NCBI GenBank assembly: GCA_903913865.1
Contig: CAIWMU010000090.1
Location: 1-46,480 of the forward strand
Length of the DNA: 46,480 nt
Direction: 5' to 3'
Source of the DNA: an uncultured Verrucomicrobia subdivision 3 bacterium
GTDB taxonomy: Bacteria > Verrucomicrobiota > Verrucomicrobiia > Limisphaerales > UBA8199
The notes below the pieces were generated by a model. That model was not told where the DNA came from and ran no database searches. It worked only from the letters and a program-made list of their open reading frames with translations. Positions 28,036 to 40,696 of this stretch are shown piece after piece. How positions within the stretch are numbered: the first letter of the stretch is position 1; each line of letters opens with the position of its first letter. Both the position numbers and the translations under genes were made by a program.

Positions 28036-28333
28036 GCTGGTTGTCTGTTGTTTATGGTTGAGCCGTTGGTGTCATCATGCTGTCAGCCGCCGGGCAGCGC
28101 CACCCGCTTTTCTCATTCGACAAAAAAAGCCGGAACCGCTCCCGATCCATCGGTTGACCCCGCGCATCAAGCCCTCCCGGTCCACTACCGTGGGCGGATA
28201 AGCAGGGTTCAATACGGCGGTCATTGCGATGACGGGGAGGCTAGTGGAATCCACGATGGGCCGCAAGCGTGAGTTCTTGGACGCAATGTGATTTGAATCG
28301 TCACCCGTGCGCGGGTGCTATAGGTTTTTGGGA
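28036..28333. other. Non-coding region between divergent permease and CPBP protease genes
   Basis: No gene is seen. A CACCCG-tgcg-CGGGTG hairpin (28302-28317) lies just upstream of the CPBP start, and an alternative GTG start at 28307 falls inside it, which argues for the ATG at 28334. No convincing -35/-10 pair was found. Confidence 0.4.
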
Positions 28334-29227
28334 ATGCAATCCCGACCGGTCTGGATGCCAAACGCGATCATACGCTTGTTAATCAGCGTATTCATCTGCG
28401 TTTACTGCGGGTCGCTGATTCTGACGATGGTGGATCCGCAACTCGCTGCAAAGGTGCAGTTGAGGGTGCGCGTGACGGGTGGGGCGGCCTTGTTATGCCT
28501 TGGAGTGTCATTGGTGCTTTTGCGCCGATCATGGACTCTGGAAGACATGCTTCGACGTGCGGGAGTGACCCTGGCCTTTTTTTATCTTGGTTTCGCCTTC
28601 GGGGCCGTGGCCCAAAAATGGGCCGGTGTTTCCGGAGGGGGCGTGTCGCAGATGGTCATCTCCGCGATGGCTTTCCAGGGGTCGATTCTGGTATTGGTTT
28701 GGCTCCTTCTACTTGAGCACGGGGCGGGGTGGTGCGATTCATTTGGTTTGGACAAGGACTGGCAGCGGGCCGTGATGACCGGAATTTTGACAGCCCTCCT
28801 GTTTCTGCCGCTGGCGTGGCTTTTGCAGAAGGCTTCCATGCTGGCACTCGACTATCTGCCGATCCCATCCCTGAAACCGGAGGAGCAGCAGGCGGTGCGC
28901 ACGATCCGGGATGCGGCGGGCTTTGGGGACCGGTTGACGCTCGGGGTGATCACCATCCTGCTGGCACCGGTGGCCGAGGAGTTGCTTTTCCGGGGTGTGT
29001 TGTTTCCGGGCATCAGGGATCTGGGCTTCCCGCGTCTGGCGGTCTGGGGGAACTCCCTGTTGTTTGCGGGGGTGCATCTGAATCTCGCAACGTTTCTGCC
29101 GCTCCTGCTGCTGGCGCTGGTGCTGACCCGGCTTTACGAGAAGACGGGAAATCTGGTCTCGTGCATCACAGCACACAGCCTGTTCAATGCCCTGAATTTC
29201 CTCTTGTTGTTTTTGACTTCGGCGTGA
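28334..29227 (+). CDS. CPBP family intramembrane metalloprotease
   Basis: This encodes a 297-residue membrane protein with about eight hydrophobic segments. The conserved glutamates and arginine of the CPBP (CAAX protease/bacteriocin-processing, ABI) family are in APVAEELLFRGVLF near residue 215, and histidines follow in FAGVHLN (near 248) and ITAHSLFNALNF (near 281). These form the zinc site of the Rce1-like fold. It ends 13 bp before thiL and may be cotranscribed with thiL-tsaE-tsaB. The substrate is unknown; some family members give immunity to bacteriocins. A second member lies at 39722. Confidence 0.85.
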   Translation: MQSRPVWMPNAIIRLLISVFICVYCGSLILTMVDPQLAAKVQLRVRVTGGAALLCLGVSLVLLRRSWTLEDMLRRAGVTLAFFYLGFAFGAVAQKWAGVSGGGVSQMVISAMAFQGSILVLVWLLLLEHGAGWCDSFGLDKDWQRAVMTGILTALLFLPLAWLLQKASMLALDYLPIPSLKPEEQQAVRTIRDAAGFGDRLTLGVITILLAPVAEELLFRGVLFPGIRDLGFPRLAVWGNSLLFAGVHLNLATFLPLLLLALVLTRLYEKTGNLVSCITAHSLFNALNFLLLFLTSA

Positions 29228-33432: not shown

Positions 33433-33702
33433 CCCGGAAGATCCAGGGAGCCGCCGGGTCAGCGGGCTTTGGAATGTGGCCCGGCACAGGGAAAGGAATG
33501 CGAATTCGAAATGTGGAATTGGCAGGGATGGGTAACCGCTCATGGACACGAATGCACGCCAATGGGGCGGGGCGGTGGATGGCCCCGCATCCCAGCCCTG
33601 GCAGGTTACGAGAGGATTGCCTGCCCGGCGCATAATGAATCGCGAAGATTGGGGGACGATTTGGCTTGCTGCGATACCCAAGTCTACTACATTGGTGGTG
33701 TT
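33433..33702. other. Non-coding leader region of the accessory array, with a dispersed repeat
   Basis: The frame of the next gene stays open through this stretch (to 33469), but the translation is Cys/Trp-rich and consists of repeat DNA, so it is not taken as coding. The promoter of the downstream array must lie here, but no convincing -35/-10 pair was found. Confidence 0.5.
33534..33572. repeat. Short triple repeat, GCGAATGGAC family, copy 3
   Basis: Starts AACCGCTCATGGACACG and ends ccaatggggcgggg, sharing its distal GGGGCGGGG with copy 2. It lies 130 bp upstream of the start of the accessory array. Confidence 0.75.
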
Positions 33703-35676
33703 GTGCAACGAGCGGGTAAATTGCTGTTTGTCGCCGGTCTAACGCTTTGTTTGAGCGCAGGCGTTCCGCTCGCAGTTGGGCAACCCACCAACACGCCGGT
33801 TCCACCCACCGAGTCAACGGCCAAGACGGATGCGTTCATTCCTCCGAAGAGTCTTGCAGAACTGCTGGCCTTGGCACCGGACCAGCTTGAGAAGGTAGAC
33901 ATCGCGATCATCGATCTCCTTTGTGCCGAAGGCCTGCGCGGTTCCGAGGACCTGAACGTGCAGAAATGCCTAGACACACTCAACACCTGGGTGCGATACG
34001 TCGAAGCTGAAACCAAGCGCAACCAGCATCTGTTCGAGGAGCACCCGGAGCGGTACAAAAATTCGCTCGCCTATTACCGCATGGCGATGGTGGCAACCGT
34101 TCTTTGCGAGGATTTGCGAATGCGTTACAACCCTGAGCGGGAGAAGCAGCTTGAGAACGGGCACAGAATCCGCTCGGACGATGAGCAGAAGAAGTTCTTT
34201 GAGGACTCGAAGGATGTCTTTATCCATGGCCTGATTGGCGGCAAGCATTACGGCACGTGCGCTTCGATGCCCTTCCTCTACGCTGCGGTTGCCAGGCGGT
34301 TGGGGTATCCCGTGACGCTTGCCACCACCGCCACGCATTTTTACGTGCGTTATGAGGAGGGCGAGGGCAAACACCTGAACGTCGAGGCAACCGAACATCG
34401 GGCGTTCCTCACCCCTTCGGACAACGAATACAAGAATCCCTGGGAGCTCCACGTGAGCGATGAGGAGGTTAGCGGGATGCGCTATCTCCAACCCTTGAGC
34501 AACAAGGAAATCCTTGGGCATTCGCTTCTCACGCGGGCGGAGGTCCTGCGAAGCATGAATCAATACGAGAAGCAGGCCGAGACTTGGGAGACTGCCGCCC
34601 GATATTTGCCAGACACCCCGATGTGGAGAGGCATCGAGCATGACATGCAGCAAATGGCCAAGAACGAGGGTGAGCAGAGGCGGCGCAACGCCATGTGGAA
34701 TAAGATCGCCCAAATCTACATTCCGCACGGTGCTGGCTACGCCTACTTTCAGGACAGGAAGGTTCGGCTGCACCTGGTGATGAACTACAGCACCGATACA
34801 GCGGCCATCGAGAGGGCCAGGAAGCAGCTCGAGGATGACCTTCGGGCTTACGTCAAACACTTCATTGAGCCTGGCGACCGTCTAATCGGCGCGGAAATCC
34901 CGCTGTCCGGCATGTCAGATGGGCAAACCGTGCTTCGCTATTCAACCGCGTCTGGCAAAGACGTCAAAATTCCAGCCGATTTTTTGCCTCCCTTTGAACG
35001 GCGAATCATCCCGCCGGAAGTCTGCCAGCGGGTTGCCGACAAAAAGCTGGAGGATGGAGAATCCATTCTGGCGGAGTTTTGGGCCTTCTATGATGAGACC
35101 GCGCAAGCTCGGCAGGCAGCCAGCCAGAGGGCCAGCCGGCAGCGGGCCATTCAAAACGGAAACGGCACCAGCGCGATTCTCGTTGCCCGAGAGCAGTTAC
35201 CACTTGACTACTGGGAAGGCATCCCACCTGAACTCGAAACGAGGCTGCAGGGTATCAACGACCCTCAAGCAGCCGTCGCCGAAATCAACGCTTACTACAC
35301 GGCTGACTACGTTCGCAAACATGGCCATGCGCCCCCCGACGAAACGGCCGCCAAGCAATTGGCGGCGGCGCCAGGATACGACGGCTTACCCGCGAACATG
35401 AGAAATGCACTCGTGCGTGACCCGGCTTTCGGATACCAGAAGCTTAATCCGCCGGGTGATGACGAGGGTCGAAGGGGTTGGGCGCAGGAGCAGAGCCAAG
35501 CCACCATGCGGGAGTACCTGCAACGGGTCAACGCTTCACAATCCCGCATTCGGATTGTGCCCTCCTCCACAGTCAATGGCGGCTCAGCGGAACCTTCTGT
35601 ACCCCAAGTTGCGCCGTTGACGGCGCCTGCGGAATTTGAGGTAAATTCGCAAGTAAACGGGAAAGGAAAGCAGTGA
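33703..35676 (+). CDS. Secreted transglutaminase-like (SirB1-like) protein, first gene of the mini-RHS array
   Basis: From the GTG at 33703 the protein has 657 residues with a Sec signal peptide (QRAGKLLFVAGLTLCLSAG, then a Thr/Pro-rich mature start). A papain-like transglutaminase core is visible: Cys186 in HYGTCASMPFLYAAVARRLG, His212 in THFYVRY, and Glu228 in LNVEATEH, 16 residues after the His as in the usual C-H-D/E triad. The second half is helical and charged (many EK/AR pairs) and ends in a Gly/Pro/Ser-rich tail of 38 residues. An open frame extends back to 33469 through repeat DNA and is rejected. Its TGA overlaps the next gene's GTG (GTGA). The tail recurs at 36968-37084. The activity is inferred from the triad only. 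Confidence 0.65.
   Translation: MQRAGKLLFVAGLTLCLSAGVPLAVGQPTNTPVPPTESTAKTDAFIPPKSLAELLALAPDQLEKVDIAIIDLLCAEGLRGSEDLNVQKCLDTLNTWVRYVEAETKRNQHLFEEHPERYKNSLAYYRMAMVATVLCEDLRMRYNPEREKQLENGHRIRSDDEQKKFFEDSKDVFIHGLIGGKHYGTCASMPFLYAAVARRLGYPVTLATTATHFYVRYEEGEGKHLNVEATEHRAFLTPSDNEYKNPWELHVSDEEVSGMRYLQPLSNKEILGHSLLTRAEVLRSMNQYEKQAETWETAARYLPDTPMWRGIEHDMQQMAKNEGEQRRRNAMWNKIAQIYIPHGAGYAYFQDRKVRLHLVMNYSTDTAAIERARKQLEDDLRAYVKHFIEPGDRLIGAEIPLSGMSDGQTVLRYSTASGKDVKIPADFLPPFERRIIPPEVCQRVADKKLEDGESILAEFWAFYDETAQARQAASQRASRQRAIQNGNGTSAILVAREQLPLDYWEGIPPELETRLQGINDPQAAVAEINAYYTADYVRKHGHAPPDETAAKQLAAAPGYDGLPANMRNALVRDPAFGYQKLNPPGDDEGRRGWAQEQSQATMREYLQRVNASQSRIRIVPSSTVNGGSAEPSVPQVAPLTAPAEFEVNSQVNGKGKQ
35560..35676 (+). 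repeat. Module-border repeat, copy 1 (3' end of the transglutaminase-like gene)
   Basis: The last 39 codons of the gene, from ccctcctccac to the TGA, are about 70% identical (estimate by eye) and exactly equal in length to 36968-37084. Both end in AACGGGAAAGGAAAGCA-TGA and run straight into a mini-RHS start codon. Confidence 0.9.
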
Positions 35677-36440
35677 AGATGATTTGGAAGATTGGTCTGG
35701 CCCTTGTTGGTGTAGTCTTTCTGACTGCCGACGCCCGCGCCGGGCGCTGGCTCTTGCGCGATCCGATTCAGGAGGGGGCAGGTTTTGTGGCGCGCGACCC
35801 CGTCCCGCAGTTCGATATCACTCAGATTCAGGAGGTAAACGAACCCAACCTCTACGCGTTCGTGGTCAATGACCCGCTGAACTCTGTTGACCCACTCGGG
35901 CTTGTGACAGTCGGCTTTTATGGCGCCGATACGCCCTTCACCTTTCCCAACGAGGGTAACGTCAAGATGAAGGAAATCGCAAACGAGTTGGGTGCGCCGA
36001 TATACCGCTCCACGGCAATCTATCCGGCGTATGAGTACTTGCTGAAGTACTTCCGGAACCAACCGGGTTGCACAAACGACGAACCAATTAAAATATTCGG
36101 TCACAGTTGGGGCGGCATCTCGGCAGTGAAGTTGTCCCGCTGGATTGGTCGTTCTGAGCTGCGAAACCACAAGGTCGTTGTAGCAGTGATTGACCCGGTT
36201 CGCACACTGCGTCTGCCGCCGACGAGTGTCCCAAGCAACGTGGCGTTCTTTTGGAACCGCTATCAGACGCACGGGAATGGAGTTGTCATCCTGGGCCGCC
36301 CGGTCCACGGCAGGAGTCTCACCAGCTACGCGCAGAGCAGCGACCAGCTCGATCTTAACCCTGGGCCGGAAGATAATGGCATCGACCACTTCAGCATCAT
36401 AGAGGTGGTTAAGCCCGACATCATTCGCGTTCTAAGGTAA
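35673..36440 (+). CDS. Mini-RHS protein 1: signal peptide + RHS core end + alpha/beta-hydrolase-like domain
   Basis: This encodes 255 residues from a GTG that overlaps the upstream TGA; the GTG is supported by the ATG at the same place in paralogue 37081 and by the GGAAAGGAAAG Shine-Dalgarno site. Residues 1-23 are a signal peptide (MIWKIGLALVGVVFLTADARA). Residues 24-77 are the end of an RHS-associated core: GRWLLRDPIQEG, NEPNLYAFVVNDP and SVDPLGL. None of the upstream YD/RHS repeats exist. The C-terminal domain has a nucleophile elbow GHSWGG (Ser145), Asp174 in VAVIDPV and His239 in GIDHFSI, an intact serine-hydrolase triad, so a lipase/esterase-like effector is likely. A lipoprotein gene follows after 9 bp. 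Substrate unknown. Confidence 0.8.
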   Translation: MKMIWKIGLALVGVVFLTADARAGRWLLRDPIQEGAGFVARDPVPQFDITQIQEVNEPNLYAFVVNDPLNSVDPLGLVTVGFYGADTPFTFPNEGNVKMKEIANELGAPIYRSTAIYPAYEYLLKYFRNQPGCTNDEPIKIFGHSWGGISAVKLSRWIGRSELRNHKVVVAVIDPVRTLRLPPTSVPSNVAFFWNRYQTHGNGVVILGRPVHGRSLTSYAQSSDQLDLNPGPEDNGIDHFSIIEVVKPDIIRVLR

Positions 36441-36449
36441 CCGCACCTC

Positions 36450-36887
36450 GTGGGCTCCGCACGGCATCTTAACATTTTGCTCTCCTTAGCGGTTGTGGCC
36501 GCTGCCACGGTTGGGTGTGCCCACACATTGCGCCTCAGACTCGTGGACGCCGGAAGCGAGCAACCGCTGGCTGGTGTTGAAACCTCATGGAGAGAGGACA
36601 AGATCGATTTGCTGCTAGGGGCGTACCACAACGGTCCGACCAACCTCCAACCGTCAACGGGGGAGGGCATCGTCACAGTTGGAAAGGTGCATCCAAGGTG
36701 GGTCGGCAGGTTCGAGTTTACAGCCCCGGGATATACCCAGCTCTATGGAATTTACAGCCGAGGTGGGCTCGCTCTCGGCACAAAGACCAACGCAAATATC
36801 CGGGGCGAACGGTTCGTGCTGGAAGGTCCGGTGACCACCGCCGCTAGTTCCAACGGTACCTTCACTGTGCCGATGTCACGGAGGTGA
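36450..36887 (+). CDS. Lipoprotein A, candidate partner or immunity protein of mini-RHS 1
   Basis: This encodes 145 residues from a GTG at 36450. The N-terminus (ARHLNILLSLAVVAAATVGC) is a lipoprotein signal with the lipobox Cys near residue 23. The mature part begins AHTLRLRLVDAGSEQPLAGV, continues through beta-rich sequence and has FEFTAPGYTQLYG, the pattern of a carboxypeptidase-regulatory-like Ig fold. Position directly after a secreted effector-like gene, and the outward-facing lipid anchor, suggest protection or retention of mini-RHS 1; this is inference. No RBS is strong, so translation may depend on coupling. Confidence 0.6.
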   Translation: MGSARHLNILLSLAVVAAATVGCAHTLRLRLVDAGSEQPLAGVETSWREDKIDLLLGAYHNGPTNLQPSTGEGIVTVGKVHPRWVGRFEFTAPGYTQLYGIYSRGGLALGTKTNANIRGERFVLEGPVTTAASSNGTFTVPMSRR

Positions 36888-36913
36888 GCCCCTCCGACAA
36901 GGAGAAATGAGCC

Positions 36914-37084
36914 ATGTTGGTATTGGGTTGGGGGCCGCGTGCCCAAAACCCGCAAGCTGGGCTCGTGCCCTCGTCCGCAATCAGTGGCGGTTCAATCGAG
37001 TTTTCTGTACCCCAAAATTCGCCATTGACGCCATATCTAAGGTTTGAGACAAACTTGCCAGGTAACGGGAAAGGAAAGCAATGA
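36914..37084 (+). CDS. 56-codon leader ORF made of a duplicated gene tail, overlapping mini-RHS 2
   Basis: An ATG at 36914 has a good AAGGAG site 9 nt upstream (36899-36904). The frame is open for 56 codons and its TGA overlaps the ATG of mini-RHS 2 (ATGA at 37081-37084). The last 38 residues (GGSIEFSVPQ, LTPYLRFETN, GNGKGKQ) are homologous to the C-terminus of the transglutaminase-like protein at 35560-35676. The first 18 residues are unrelated. It looks like a duplication scar kept because it couples translation into the next cistron. A protein function is unlikely. Confidence 0.65.
   Translation: MLVLGWGPRAQNPQAGLVPSSAISGGSIEFSVPQNSPLTPYLRFETNLPGNGKGKQ
36968..37084 (+). repeat. Module-border repeat, copy 2
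   Basis: 117 bp equal in length to 35560-35676, in the same reading frame, with the same TGA placement directly before a mini-RHS start codon. Divergence is mostly at codon positions that keep the frame open. Confidence 0.9.
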
Positions 37085-37968
37085 AGACGATTTGGAAGGT
37101 TGGTCTGGTTCTTTTGGGTGTTATCATGCTGGCTGCTGACGCCCGCGCCGGTCGCTGGCTTTCACACGACCCCATTCAGGAGGGGGTTGGCTTTGTGGAC
37201 CGGGATGCGATCCCGGACTTCGACCCCGTCTTTGAGCCGAGGAACGAACCCAACCTGTACGCGTTCGTTGGCAATGACGGCATCAGCTACCTTGACCCGC
37301 TGGGCCTGTGGAAAATTGACCGCAATGGCAGCGCGAAGGCCCCAGTGCTCGCAGAACCAGGCGACACCATTGGCAGCCTCGCCGGTCTGATTGGTCTGAG
37401 CGCGAGCGAATACCAGCGGTGGCTAACACTTTCCTCGGGGACCGCGATGCCCGGCTCGTCCAGCCAGAGGCTTGGAGGCTGTGAGAAGTTCGAAATTCCG
37501 AATACAGTAGTCGCGTATTGGGCTGGGTGGGGTGGTGGCATTGGCAGGTGGTACGTGACTTGGAATTCGAGCGTCAATTACCTCCGTGCGCGGGGTTTCA
37601 ATGTTGATAACCACCACCATCAAGCCGGCGACACCATGGGCCTACAGAAAATGTTCACCTCCAAGTCGATGGCAAAAGAGCTCCAGGGCGTATTCTTCTG
37701 GGGTCATGGCGGTCCGTACCCGTATCCTGCGCAGTACTTGGTGAGCCAGAGCGGTGACGCTGTCCTTGCGTTCTCAAGTCCTGGGCTTTATTACCACATG
37801 GCTTTGGGCCTGGTCTTCGCCTGCGATTCAAATAGCGGGAAGAGCGCCCTTATGAGCGGCAGCGGGGGCGAGATTTGGCACGGCTACACCGGCACACTCT
37901 ATCCCGTGCCCTTTAGGCGCTATCACGCAAAACACTTCATCAAGCCTGGACAGCAGGCGACACATTGA
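37081..37968 (+). CDS. Mini-RHS protein 2: signal peptide + RHS core end + LysM-like and His/Cys peptidase-like region
   Basis: This encodes 295 residues; the first 76 are paralogous to mini-RHS 1: signal peptide (MKTIWKVGLVLLGVIMLAAD), then GRWLSHDPIQEG, NEPNLYAFVGND and LDPLGL. The rest is unrelated. Residues 88-116 (APVLAEPGDTIGSLAGLIGL, SASEYQRWL) resemble a LysM-like motif. Further on, WGHGG (His209) after a hydrophobic strand and GLVFACDSNSG (Cys248) match the His-Gly and Ala-Cys pattern of clan CD (caspase/CHAT-like) peptidases. The protein ends KHFIKPGQQATH, a tail also found on the next gene. It overlaps the leader ORF by ATGA and lies 4 bp before lipoprotein B. Peptidase activity is a hypothesis. 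Confidence 0.78.
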   Translation: MKTIWKVGLVLLGVIMLAADARAGRWLSHDPIQEGVGFVDRDAIPDFDPVFEPRNEPNLYAFVGNDGISYLDPLGLWKIDRNGSAKAPVLAEPGDTIGSLAGLIGLSASEYQRWLTLSSGTAMPGSSSQRLGGCEKFEIPNTVVAYWAGWGGGIGRWYVTWNSSVNYLRARGFNVDNHHHQAGDTMGLQKMFTSKSMAKELQGVFFWGHGGPYPYPAQYLVSQSGDAVLAFSSPGLYYHMALGLVFACDSNSGKSALMSGSGGEIWHGYTGTLYPVPFRRYHAKHFIKPGQQATH

Positions 37969-37969
37969 G
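37930..37969 (+). repeat. 40-bp junction repeat, copy 1
   Basis: AAACACTTCATCAAGCC then a variable middle and ACACATTGAG. It spans the 3' end of mini-RHS 2 and its TGA, three bases before the ATG of lipoprotein B. The same unit lies at 38438-38477 before lipoprotein C. Confidence 0.85.
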
Positions 37970-37972
37970 TGT

Positions 37973-38476
37973 ATGGGGAGCAAGATTGCATGCGTCCTCC
38001 TTGGGCTGGCGATGACACTCGCCACAACCGGATGCTACACCACAATCTCAGTCAACTTTGGAAATGGCACGCCGTCCAGCGTGAACGTTCAAAGCCTTGA
38101 GAATGGTCGCCACGAGACCATTGCACCTGGGAGTTTCAAGAAGATTCCCAACGGCACTGGGGACCTGATGGTCAAAACGGAGACGGGTCAGAAGTACGTG
38201 TTTTCGCGCGTTGCCCCTTTTGACGTTGATAAAAAGTTTCTGGTGGTTGGCCACAGCATCTTTGGCCCCAATTCCGTCACTCTGAAAGTCCTGGTTGAGA
38301 CCAATATGGAACTCTACGTCCTTATGCCTGACCAGGCGGCAGCCCGTACCGAAATCGCACAGCCTGGCGGGTATCCAAAGCGCGCGCAAAAAGCAACGAC
38401 TGAACTGGAAATCCCCAGTTCTGTCTCCATGCCCCCCAAACACTTCATCAAGCCGGCGCAGCAACAAACACATTGA
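37973..38476 (+). CDS. Lipoprotein B, paralogue of lipoprotein C
   Basis: This encodes 167 residues from the ATG at 37973. The signal MGSKIACVLLGLAMTLATTG precedes a lipobox Cys at residue 21, then YTTISVNFGNGTPSSVNVQS. The mature part is beta-rich and close in pattern to lipoprotein C (GN/NGT, then AP-x-x-F-x-K-x-P, then GDLMV, then the SIFGP segment). It differs by a longer C-terminus that ends KHFIKPAQQQTH, the same tail as mini-RHS 2. It starts 4 bp after mini-RHS 2. A role as an immunity or tethering protein for that effector is plausible; the family is not recognised. Confidence 0.7.
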   Translation: MGSKIACVLLGLAMTLATTGCYTTISVNFGNGTPSSVNVQSLENGRHETIAPGSFKKIPNGTGDLMVKTETGQKYVFSRVAPFDVDKKFLVVGHSIFGPNSVTLKVLVETNMELYVLMPDQAAARTEIAQPGGYPKRAQKATTELEIPSSVSMPPKHFIKPAQQQTH

Positions 38477-38477
38477 G
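38438..38477 (+). repeat. 40-bp junction repeat, copy 2
   Basis: Same unit as 37930-37969 with a changed middle (ggcgcagcaacaa). It encodes the last 12 residues of lipoprotein B and ends just before the ATG of lipoprotein C. Confidence 0.85.
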
Positions 38478-38478
38478 C

Positions 38479-38919
38479 ATGAGGCAGGCATTGAGGCTTT
38501 TCTTTGTTTGCGCATTCATCGCGATGCTGACGACGGGGTGCTACACGCTTTCGACCGTCCGTTTTGCAAACGGAACCACCGCGAAGGTCAAGGTGAGAAG
38601 CTCCCAAACCGGCCAAGAGATTGAGGTTGCACCAGCGCGGTTTGAGAAACTGCCTCATGCTTGCGGCGACCTCATCGTGACGACGACAAATGGGCAAAGG
38701 TTCAGGTTCTCAGGCATCGACCCGCCGAGGGTCGATGGTAGTTCTGGTGGCTACCTCGAAAGACGGAGCAGTATTTTCGGCCCTGGATACATCACCCTCA
38801 GCCTCCTGCTTGGAGCCAATTCGGAGCTTCACGCGCTTTTGCCGGGTAAGAAGACGGTAGAGTCAGCCGTGCCGCAGCCCGATGACTACCCGAAGACCGG
38901 CCAGAGGATGGCTGACTGA
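38479..38919 (+). CDS. Lipoprotein C, paralogue of lipoprotein B
   Basis: This encodes 146 residues from the ATG at 38479, 2 bp after the preceding stop. The signal MRQALRLFFVCAFIAMLTTG precedes a lipobox Cys at residue 21. The mature protein repeats the pattern of lipoprotein B: CYTLSTVRFANGTTAKVKV, VAPARFEKLPHACGDLIV, RSSIFGPGYITLSLLLG. It lacks the KHFIKP tail. It is the last gene of the array; no terminator is evident after it. A TTG at 38473 is a possible earlier start but adds only two residues. Confidence 0.7.
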   Translation: MRQALRLFFVCAFIAMLTTGCYTLSTVRFANGTTAKVKVRSSQTGQEIEVAPARFEKLPHACGDLIVTTTNGQRFRFSGIDPPRVDGSSGGYLERRSSIFGPGYITLSLLLGANSELHALLPGKKTVESAVPQPDDYPKTGQRMAD

Positions 38920-39721: not shown

Positions 39722-40696
39722 ATGGGATCATCCGAAACTTCCACCCGGTCCGTTGTGCGGTCGCCGTCAGTTTGGGGGCTCGCCCTTGAAGGTTACGTTG
39801 CCCTGATAGTCTCGGTCGTTCTGGGGGTGCTGGCGTCTGCGCCAGTGATCAACTCGCAAGTGCGTTACTTTGCGGAGATGAACTACGTTCTTGGGGCCCG
39901 CCCGGCAAACGACACACAACTCAAGACATGGGCATTGGCACGGCCCGGCGTGGTGTCCTTCGCCACTGAGCGTCGTGGCGACGACTTGTTTATTCGTTCA
40001 GAGTATCGTGGCTCGGTGAACCAGCAGCCCTCCACGACCGAACTCCTGGCTGAGCTGCGCCGGCTTGGTTATGAGTTTCGCGGGATGAATGGCGGTTCGA
40101 CGGGCATGACGGGTGGCTTCCGCGAGATTTTGGCCAATGCCTTCACGTTGACGGTGCTGCTTGCAGCCATGCAGGTGGCCTTTGGCGCAGTGGGACTGAA
40201 CCGGATTCGCGCGGCGGATCGCAGGGCCGGGGCGATGGGTTCGTTGTTCCTTGGAAACCCGGGTCGGGGGCTGGTTCTTGGCGCGCTGGGTGGTCTGGGT
40301 TTGTTGGCGCTGGGCTTGCTGAACCAGAGTGTCCTGACAGCCTTGCTCGGGCATGCGCCTCCCAGCCCCTGGGAATCCACCGGCGCGATGACAGCCCAAA
40401 CCAAACTGGCATTCCTGCTGTTCGGCGGGCTGGGTGCGCCAATTGCAGAGGAGATTTTCTTTCGTGGTTATCTGGTCGGGAAATTCAAGCGGGCCGGATA
40501 CGTTGGTTTCGGCATGGCGTTTTCGTCCATCCTGTTCGCCGTGGTGCATTTCTCCGACCCTTACAACGTGCCGGTTATCTTTCTCTTTGGCGCTTGTCTG
40601 GGATGGTTGTATCACCGAACCGGATCCCTTCTGGCCCCGATCACCGCGCACGTCGTGAACAATGGTGTCGCAATCCTTTGGATGATGCTAACGTGA
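39722..40696 (+). CDS. CPBP family intramembrane metalloprotease (second copy)
   Basis: This encodes 324 residues with several transmembrane helices. The CPBP signature is PIAEEIFFRGYLV (Glu-Glu at 243-244, Arg near 248), followed by SSILFAVVHFSDP (His276) and ITAHVVNNGVAIL (His310). Between the first and second helices lies an unusual soluble insert of about 80 residues (residues 50-130, including DDLFIRSEYRG and ELLAELRRLGYEFRG), which is not in the other copy at 28334. It shares only the catalytic motifs with that protein. The substrate is unknown. It is transcribed alone and followed by small membrane genes. Confidence 0.85.
   Translation: MGSSETSTRSVVRSPSVWGLALEGYVALIVSVVLGVLASAPVINSQVRYFAEMNYVLGARPANDTQLKTWALARPGVVSFATERRGDDLFIRSEYRGSVNQQPSTTELLAELRRLGYEFRGMNGGSTGMTGGFREILANAFTLTVLLAAMQVAFGAVGLNRIRAADRRAGAMGSLFLGNPGRGLVLGALGGLGLLALGLLNQSVLTALLGHAPPSPWESTGAMTAQTKLAFLLFGGLGAPIAEEIFFRGYLVGKFKRAGYVGFGMAFSSILFAVVHFSDPYNVPVIFLFGACLGWLYHRTGSLLAPITAHVVNNGVAILWMMLT

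Follow-up and report, generated by a model that had tools for sequence, protein, structure and literature searches.

A putative Sec-exported, shell-less RHS toxin-immunity operon coupled to a transglutaminase-like enzyme in an uncultured verrucomicrobial bacterium

We analyzed a stretch of 46,480 nucleotides (the window), which is the entire contig CAIWMU010000090.1 (C90) of the 6.27-Mb draft genome GCA_903913865.1 from an uncultured Verrucomicrobia subdivision 3 bacterium of the order Limisphaerales. An array of genes in this window is read here, with a probability of roughly 70%, as a polymorphic toxin-immunity operon in which RHS toxins without a shell are exported by Sec and coupled to a transglutaminase-like enzyme. 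In the proposed mechanism, each of the short RHS proteins, here called mini-RHS, would be exported by Sec, as its N-terminus suggests, and the mature protein would comprise the final ~35-45 residues of the RHS core, with the two autoprotease aspartates and a DPLGL-type cleavage site, and behind them an effector domain that varies. Those effectors that can be recognized are predicted to be hydrolases acting on the envelope (lipase, phospholipase A2, M35 peptidase and Cys-His hydrolase), and lipoprotein or membrane-anchored partners would fit because the effector domains look envelope-acting; the conserved pairing suggests that these partners shield the producer's own envelope. The transglutaminase-like enzyme would be exported too. 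New specificities arise, as the sequences show, when the head is duplicated and the C-terminal domain and its partner are swapped, drawing on a pool common with full-length RHS proteins.

Translation of the window placed all plus-strand reading frames of the array at the coordinates given in an initial annotation of this DNA, and the tight packing of seven frames described there, with GTGA and ATGA overlaps and short gaps, is present:

33703..35676, plus strand: secreted transglutaminase-like protein, Transglut_core2 (PF13369, E 5.5e-6)
35673..36440, plus strand: mini-RHS 1, with signal peptide, RHS-core end and alpha/beta-hydrolase-like domain (partial match to TIGR03696)
36450..36887, plus strand: lipoprotein A, candidate immunity protein for mini-RHS 1 (lipobox-like TVGC; pairing of homologues)
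36914..37084, plus strand: remnant of a duplicated 3' end of the transglutaminase-like gene, 56 codons, first named a leader (DNA alignment; hidden Markov model match)
37081..37968, plus strand: mini-RHS 2, with signal peptide, RHS-core end, LysM-like segment and Cys-His, possibly caspase-like, domain (partial match to TIGR03696)
37973..38476, plus strand: lipoprotein B, candidate immunity protein for mini-RHS 2 (pairing of homologues)
38473 (TTG) or 38479 (ATG)..38919, plus strand: lipoprotein C, paralogue of B (40% identity)

The frame of the transglutaminase-like gene is open from position 33469, upstream of the start at 33703, and a GTGA overlap joins mini-RHS 1 to this preceding gene.

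Constant heads and exchangeable ends

Each mini-RHS protein of the window was confirmed, by profile match and by comparison of the C-termini, to consist of a signal peptide fused to the terminal RHS-core motif and a differing C-terminal domain, as first described. Mini-RHS 1 (E 5e-6) and mini-RHS 2 (E 1.7e-5) match positions 40-76 of the RHS core model TIGR03696, both with scores below the curated cut-off, and in both the match sits directly behind a signal peptide ending in ADARA immediately before GRW. The N-termini, (V/M)KMIWKIGLALVGVVFLTADARA and MKTIWKVGLVLLGVIMLAADARA, are signal-peptide-like and, with their ARA ends before GRW, have no lipobox cysteine; the signal peptides of most other mini-RHS proteins, in a wider set that was chosen for having signal-peptide-like N-termini, end in AxA. 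In RHS toxins, caging and delivery of the toxin are attributed to the shell. No YD-repeat shell is present in the window proteins, in which only positions ~40-76 of the core model follow the signal peptide, and a Pfam scan gave no match in either protein, so that DUF1020 and PAAR are not among the matches. Set against RHS toxins proper, the predicted proteins lack the shell and keep the terminal core motif with both aspartates.

The wider collection comprised 53 mini-RHS proteins, 50 C-terminal domains that were clustered by BLAST and 51 downstream genes. Both autoprotease aspartates, equivalent to D1324 and D1346 of RhsA, which are required for C-terminal autocleavage (PMC8765631), are kept in 53 of the 53 heads, most often with a spacing of 23 residues (27 heads). 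Some heads (L067, L070, L072 and L065) contain two RW-x-RD-like motifs and extra residues between the aspartates; in the window heads, a shorter insertion is seen at a similar position. The two window heads are 63% identical to each other and their C-terminal domains are unrelated. The same holds for C-termini in all 28 within-locus pairs of the collection, where heads average 66% identity within a locus and 41% between loci. The homologues are not always full-length RHS proteins, and clustering of the 50 C-terminal domains, which are far from invariant, gave 39 clusters. Judged by sequence and gene arrangement, a constant head, exchangeable C-termini and a downstream partner gene mark a putative polymorphic toxin system, and arrangement and polymorphism together support the initial reading of the gene order as that of effector-immunity cassettes.

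An RHS core motif and C-terminal diversity are also common to effectors of the type VI secretion system (T6SS), from which the genes could have decayed to fragments. We regard this origin as highly improbable and rejected it, since no match to the sheath gene VipB was found in the genome, which is 95% complete, and Sec-type signal peptides stand in place of PAAR; the recurrence across classes, the conserved order and the purifying selection described below also speak against it. Signal peptides also stand at the start of the full-length RHS proteins that were examined from the order, and in view of these and of the missing sheath gene, Sec export seems to be the rule for RHS proteins here.

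The coupled enzyme and recurrence of the operon

The transglutaminase-like protein matches PF13369 above the curated cut-off, and its key residues Cys186, His212, Glu228 (Glu or Asp) and Asp240 are conserved. Among its relatives, the cysteine was found in 33 of 33, and the histidine, Arg216 and Asp240 each in 32 of 32, while the position of Glu228 is always acidic (22 Glu, 10 Asp). Among the 320 genomes of the order, a transglutaminase-like query detected such genes in 24. A mini-RHS gene lies directly downstream in 22 of the 27 cases with contig room, a count that includes L073 and the in-frame case L075, and the overlap is exactly 4 nt at 14 of 20 measured junctions. The upstream transglutaminase-like gene is frequent among mini-RHS loci, as had been anticipated, and translation coupled so exactly hints at a joint action of enzyme and putative toxin. 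Most likely, the enzyme would process or surface-link the mini-RHS head. In L075 (6293-7912), the two genes share a single uninterrupted frame that contains an internal signal peptide, which points either to a fusion or to an in-frame start.

A second operon with the same gene order and coupling was found on contig C146 of the same genome, where a mini-RHS gene, a membrane protein gene, a transglutaminase-like gene (50% identical to the window copy), another mini-RHS gene and a lipoprotein gene of the B/C family follow each other. The first mini-RHS protein has a phospholipase C-like domain (weak match, E 0.083), and the second carries a C-terminal domain of the mini-RHS 2 type. Between the two loci, the heads are only ~37-40% identical, as compared to 78% for the shared C-terminal domain, which is the signature of C-terminal exchange. 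Directly upstream of this operon, a transposase-like remnant (L018:1141-1578) was noted by eye from the translation.

A query with the head profile identified further mini-RHS loci in other parts of the phylum; of the five that were inspected, four adjoin a transglutaminase-like gene. The relatives include Verrucomicrobia bacterium Prado240 (same order) and Lentisphaerae bacterium RIFOXYC12_FULL_60_16, with taxonomy as inferred. Compared with their counterparts, all parts of the array show purifying selection, with third codon positions near saturation and amino acids conserved. The nonsynonymous divergence (dN) of the mini-RHS 2 domain is 0.15 at saturated synonymous divergence (dS); the corresponding values are 0.42 and about 2.0 for the transglutaminase-like gene and its C146 copy, and 0.24 and 0.70 for the two window heads. 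Since dN is low relative to dS, the parts look like working genes. The initial annotation had considered that the locus might be a unique pile of debris, which we reject in view of this selection and of the recurrence in the genome, the order and the phylum.

The mini-RHS 2 domain family also terminates full-length RHS proteins in other genomes, which indicates that mini-RHS and full-length RHS proteins share one pool of domains. This sharing would be expected, too, if the array consisted of storage cassettes, that is, orphan RHS C-terminal modules that are kept chiefly as stock for recombination with full-length, Sec-exported RHS proteins, with products that matter little by themselves. Such modules are known from Salmonella (PMC7043789), and L119 (596-7794), which has no transglutaminase-like gene, contains a full-length RHS gene and, behind it, a tandem row of five mini-RHS genes whose heads are similar and whose ends are unrelated. 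A mere reservoir is nevertheless unlikely: every module has a start codon and a signal peptide that always meets the RHS core at the same point, the 4-nt coupling is usual where a transglutaminase-like gene precedes, purifying selection acts on all parts, and the Salmonella orphan, which has no delivery part, acts inside the cell. A different style of orphan array was seen in the same phylum at L182 (G436:C1:515500-533500), with twelve tandem short RHS-core reading frames that retain more of the core upstream of the end motif and have no signal peptide match of the mini-RHS type.

Predicted effectors and their partners

The C-terminal domain of mini-RHS 1 contains the motifs GHSWGG and IDPV and a late histidine (DHF). 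A close homologue in G040 shares these motifs, except that it has GWSWGG, and a profile of the domain gave a weak match to a thioesterase in PDB (E 0.039), which provides a weak lead to an alpha/beta hydrolase. The mini-RHS 2 domain begins with a LysM-like GDT..LA...GL segment and is 78% identical to its counterpart in C146 and 62% to that in G114. Its residues His133 and Cys172 are invariant over ten relatives, which suggests a caspase-like or related Cys-His hydrolase, but profile matches in PDB were all weak (bile salt hydrolase, E 0.024; caspase-6, E 0.099). Other C-terminal families of the collection resemble phospholipase A2 (E 3.1e-6), M35 metallopeptidases (E 6.8e-6) and protein-glutamine glutamyltransferases.

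The gene after a mini-RHS gene is small and starts -58 to +125 bp away, mostly at less than 40 bp. The product has a lipobox or an N-terminal hydrophobic segment in 41 of 51 cases, so that a small exported or membrane partner co-occurs with the putative toxin as proposed, as compared to 25 of 246 mechanical control frames, a baseline that is too low since spurious frames are included. At a threshold of E <=1e-8 for homologous C-termini, the downstream partners were homologous in 5 of 13 pairs with homologous C-termini and in 1 of 1163 other pairs (Fisher p 4e-10, which is too small because the pairs are non-independent). The window supplies two such cases. Homologues of lipoprotein B, which has a paralogue in lipoprotein C, follow the mini-RHS 2 domain in C146 (E 4.6e-37) and G114 (E 7.5e-41), and the sole close relative of the mini-RHS 1 domain, in G040, has a homologue of lipoprotein A (E 1.8e-9) behind it, which is present there in three tandem copies. 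The only exception at the threshold is formed by the unrelated ends of L069:3458-4162 and L066:2994-3590, which have homologous downstream partners (E 4e-14).

Some lipases depend on a foldase of their own, and Verrucomicrobiota from the environment are polymer degraders. With lipases, phospholipases and peptidases as the recognizable domains, the proteins could accordingly be digestive or surface enzymes; the variable domains would then be hydrolases that serve nutrition, and the lipoproteins would act as anchors, chaperones or foldases for them. We consider this improbable because of the extreme turnover of domains and partners (39 clusters of 50), the domain exchange with full-length RHS proteins and the duplication of partner genes after a single enzyme; the window partners, moreover, match no Pfam family, foldases included.

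The 56-codon frame at 36914..37084 had been taken for a leader. A true leader peptide was rejected: the frame aligns at the DNA level with the last ~50 codons of the transglutaminase-like gene and matches the corresponding hidden Markov model at positions 635-685. This homology, together with the retained ATGA overlap with mini-RHS 2, indicates that the second cassette probably arose by duplication of the 3' end of the transglutaminase-like gene and the mini-RHS head, to which a different C-terminal domain was added. Lipoproteins B and C (E 2e-34) likewise look like products of local duplication, since the end of lipoprotein B copies the tail of mini-RHS 2 (KHFIKPAQQQTH vs KHFIKPGQQATH).

Besides the low control baseline, several observations weigh against an exported toxin-immunity operon. 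No outer-membrane export component was identified, the transglutaminase-like gene is missing at some mini-RHS loci (L119, L120 and others), and weak matches to it in L081, L082, L083 and L085 have no mini-RHS gene. About 10 of the 51 downstream genes look cytoplasmic. Partners are not homologous in 8 of the 13 pairs with homologous C-termini. Single-sequence structure predictions of both mini-RHS proteins had a mean predicted local distance difference test score of 38, and the fold assignments rest on motifs and weak profile matches.

Around the array, CAAX-type Rce1-like membrane proteases flank the region on both sides (28307-29224 and 39722-40696), and the remaining flanking genes have an ordinary chromosomal look (ADH, AIRS, PNPOx, UDG). 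Scans of the locus gave no candidate promoter and only chance-level terminator sites. In GC content, the island (0.55-0.60) is little different from the downstream flank, and recent import is therefore not indicated.

If the reading as an exported toxin-immunity operon is true, RHS toxins could be deployed without a shell, in proteins that retain just the last ~35-45 core residues, both autoprotease aspartates included, and have gained a Sec signal, and the autoprotease tail would be isolated in a 30-kDa protein amenable to testing. It would also open an unannotated repertoire of toxins and immunity proteins in a phylum with few characterized antagonism systems, with envelope-acting enzymes paired to lipoproteins, and would provide a conserved partner enzyme with a role open to direct study. 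A bolder proposal, which we find doubtful, is that of a distinct, phylum-wide class of shell-less RHS toxins in Verrucomicrobiota-type bacteria, in which the autoprotease tail is a tag that is cleaved or covalently surface-attached by the dedicated, co-translated and catalytically intact transglutaminase-like enzyme, with delivery needing neither a shell nor a contractile injection system.

Comparison with known systems

No published description of short RHS proteins with signal peptides was found among open-licence PMC papers, and the recurring operon is apparently undescribed. The initial statement that no system with this layout has been described holds to that extent, but close precedents exist (PMC3482391, PMC4287609, PMC5562445). 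Two of these are more distant in their building blocks. MafB/MafI of Neisseria (PMC4287609) resembles the mini-RHS cassettes in secretion by a signal peptide, a polymorphic toxin, an immunity gene directly downstream and multiple cassettes, but MafB has a DUF1020 N-terminal domain instead of an RHS core, no transglutaminase-like partner is described, and the lineage is distant. SitB-SitA-SitI of myxobacteria (PMC5562445) shares an overlapping accessory gene, an exported polymorphic toxin, an immunity gene and the lack of a dedicated secretion machine. Unlike the mini-RHS proteins, SitA is a lipoprotein with another N-terminus and nuclease domains that is delivered by outer-membrane exchange, and SitB is of unknown function. 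Neither the DUF1020 domain that defines MafB nor the lipoprotein toxin that defines SitA is recognizable in the mini-RHS sequences.

The orphan rhs-CT/rhsI modules of Salmonella (PMC7043789) also start just before PxxxxDPxGL and combine a toxin domain and an immunity gene without a delivery part. The Salmonella orphan acts in the cytoplasm and is defined by having no export signal, whereas the mini-RHS proteins have Sec signals, heads of their own and often a coupled enzyme, and also occur without a nearby full-length RHS gene. Closest in composition are the RHS polymorphic toxins exported by Sec and the type II secretion system (Zhang et al., 2012, PMC3482391), which have a signal peptide, an RHS core, a variable C-terminus and a downstream immunity gene; alpha/beta-hydrolase, phospholipase A2 and caspase-like domains are listed among polymorphic toxins in the same study. 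Some of those RHS toxins carry an inactive transglutaminase domain at the N-terminus, proposed as an anchor. In contrast, the window proteins have no RHS repeat shell, the transglutaminase-like protein is encoded by a separate, coupled gene with Cys, His and Asp/Glu in place, and the partners are mostly of the lipoprotein or membrane type.

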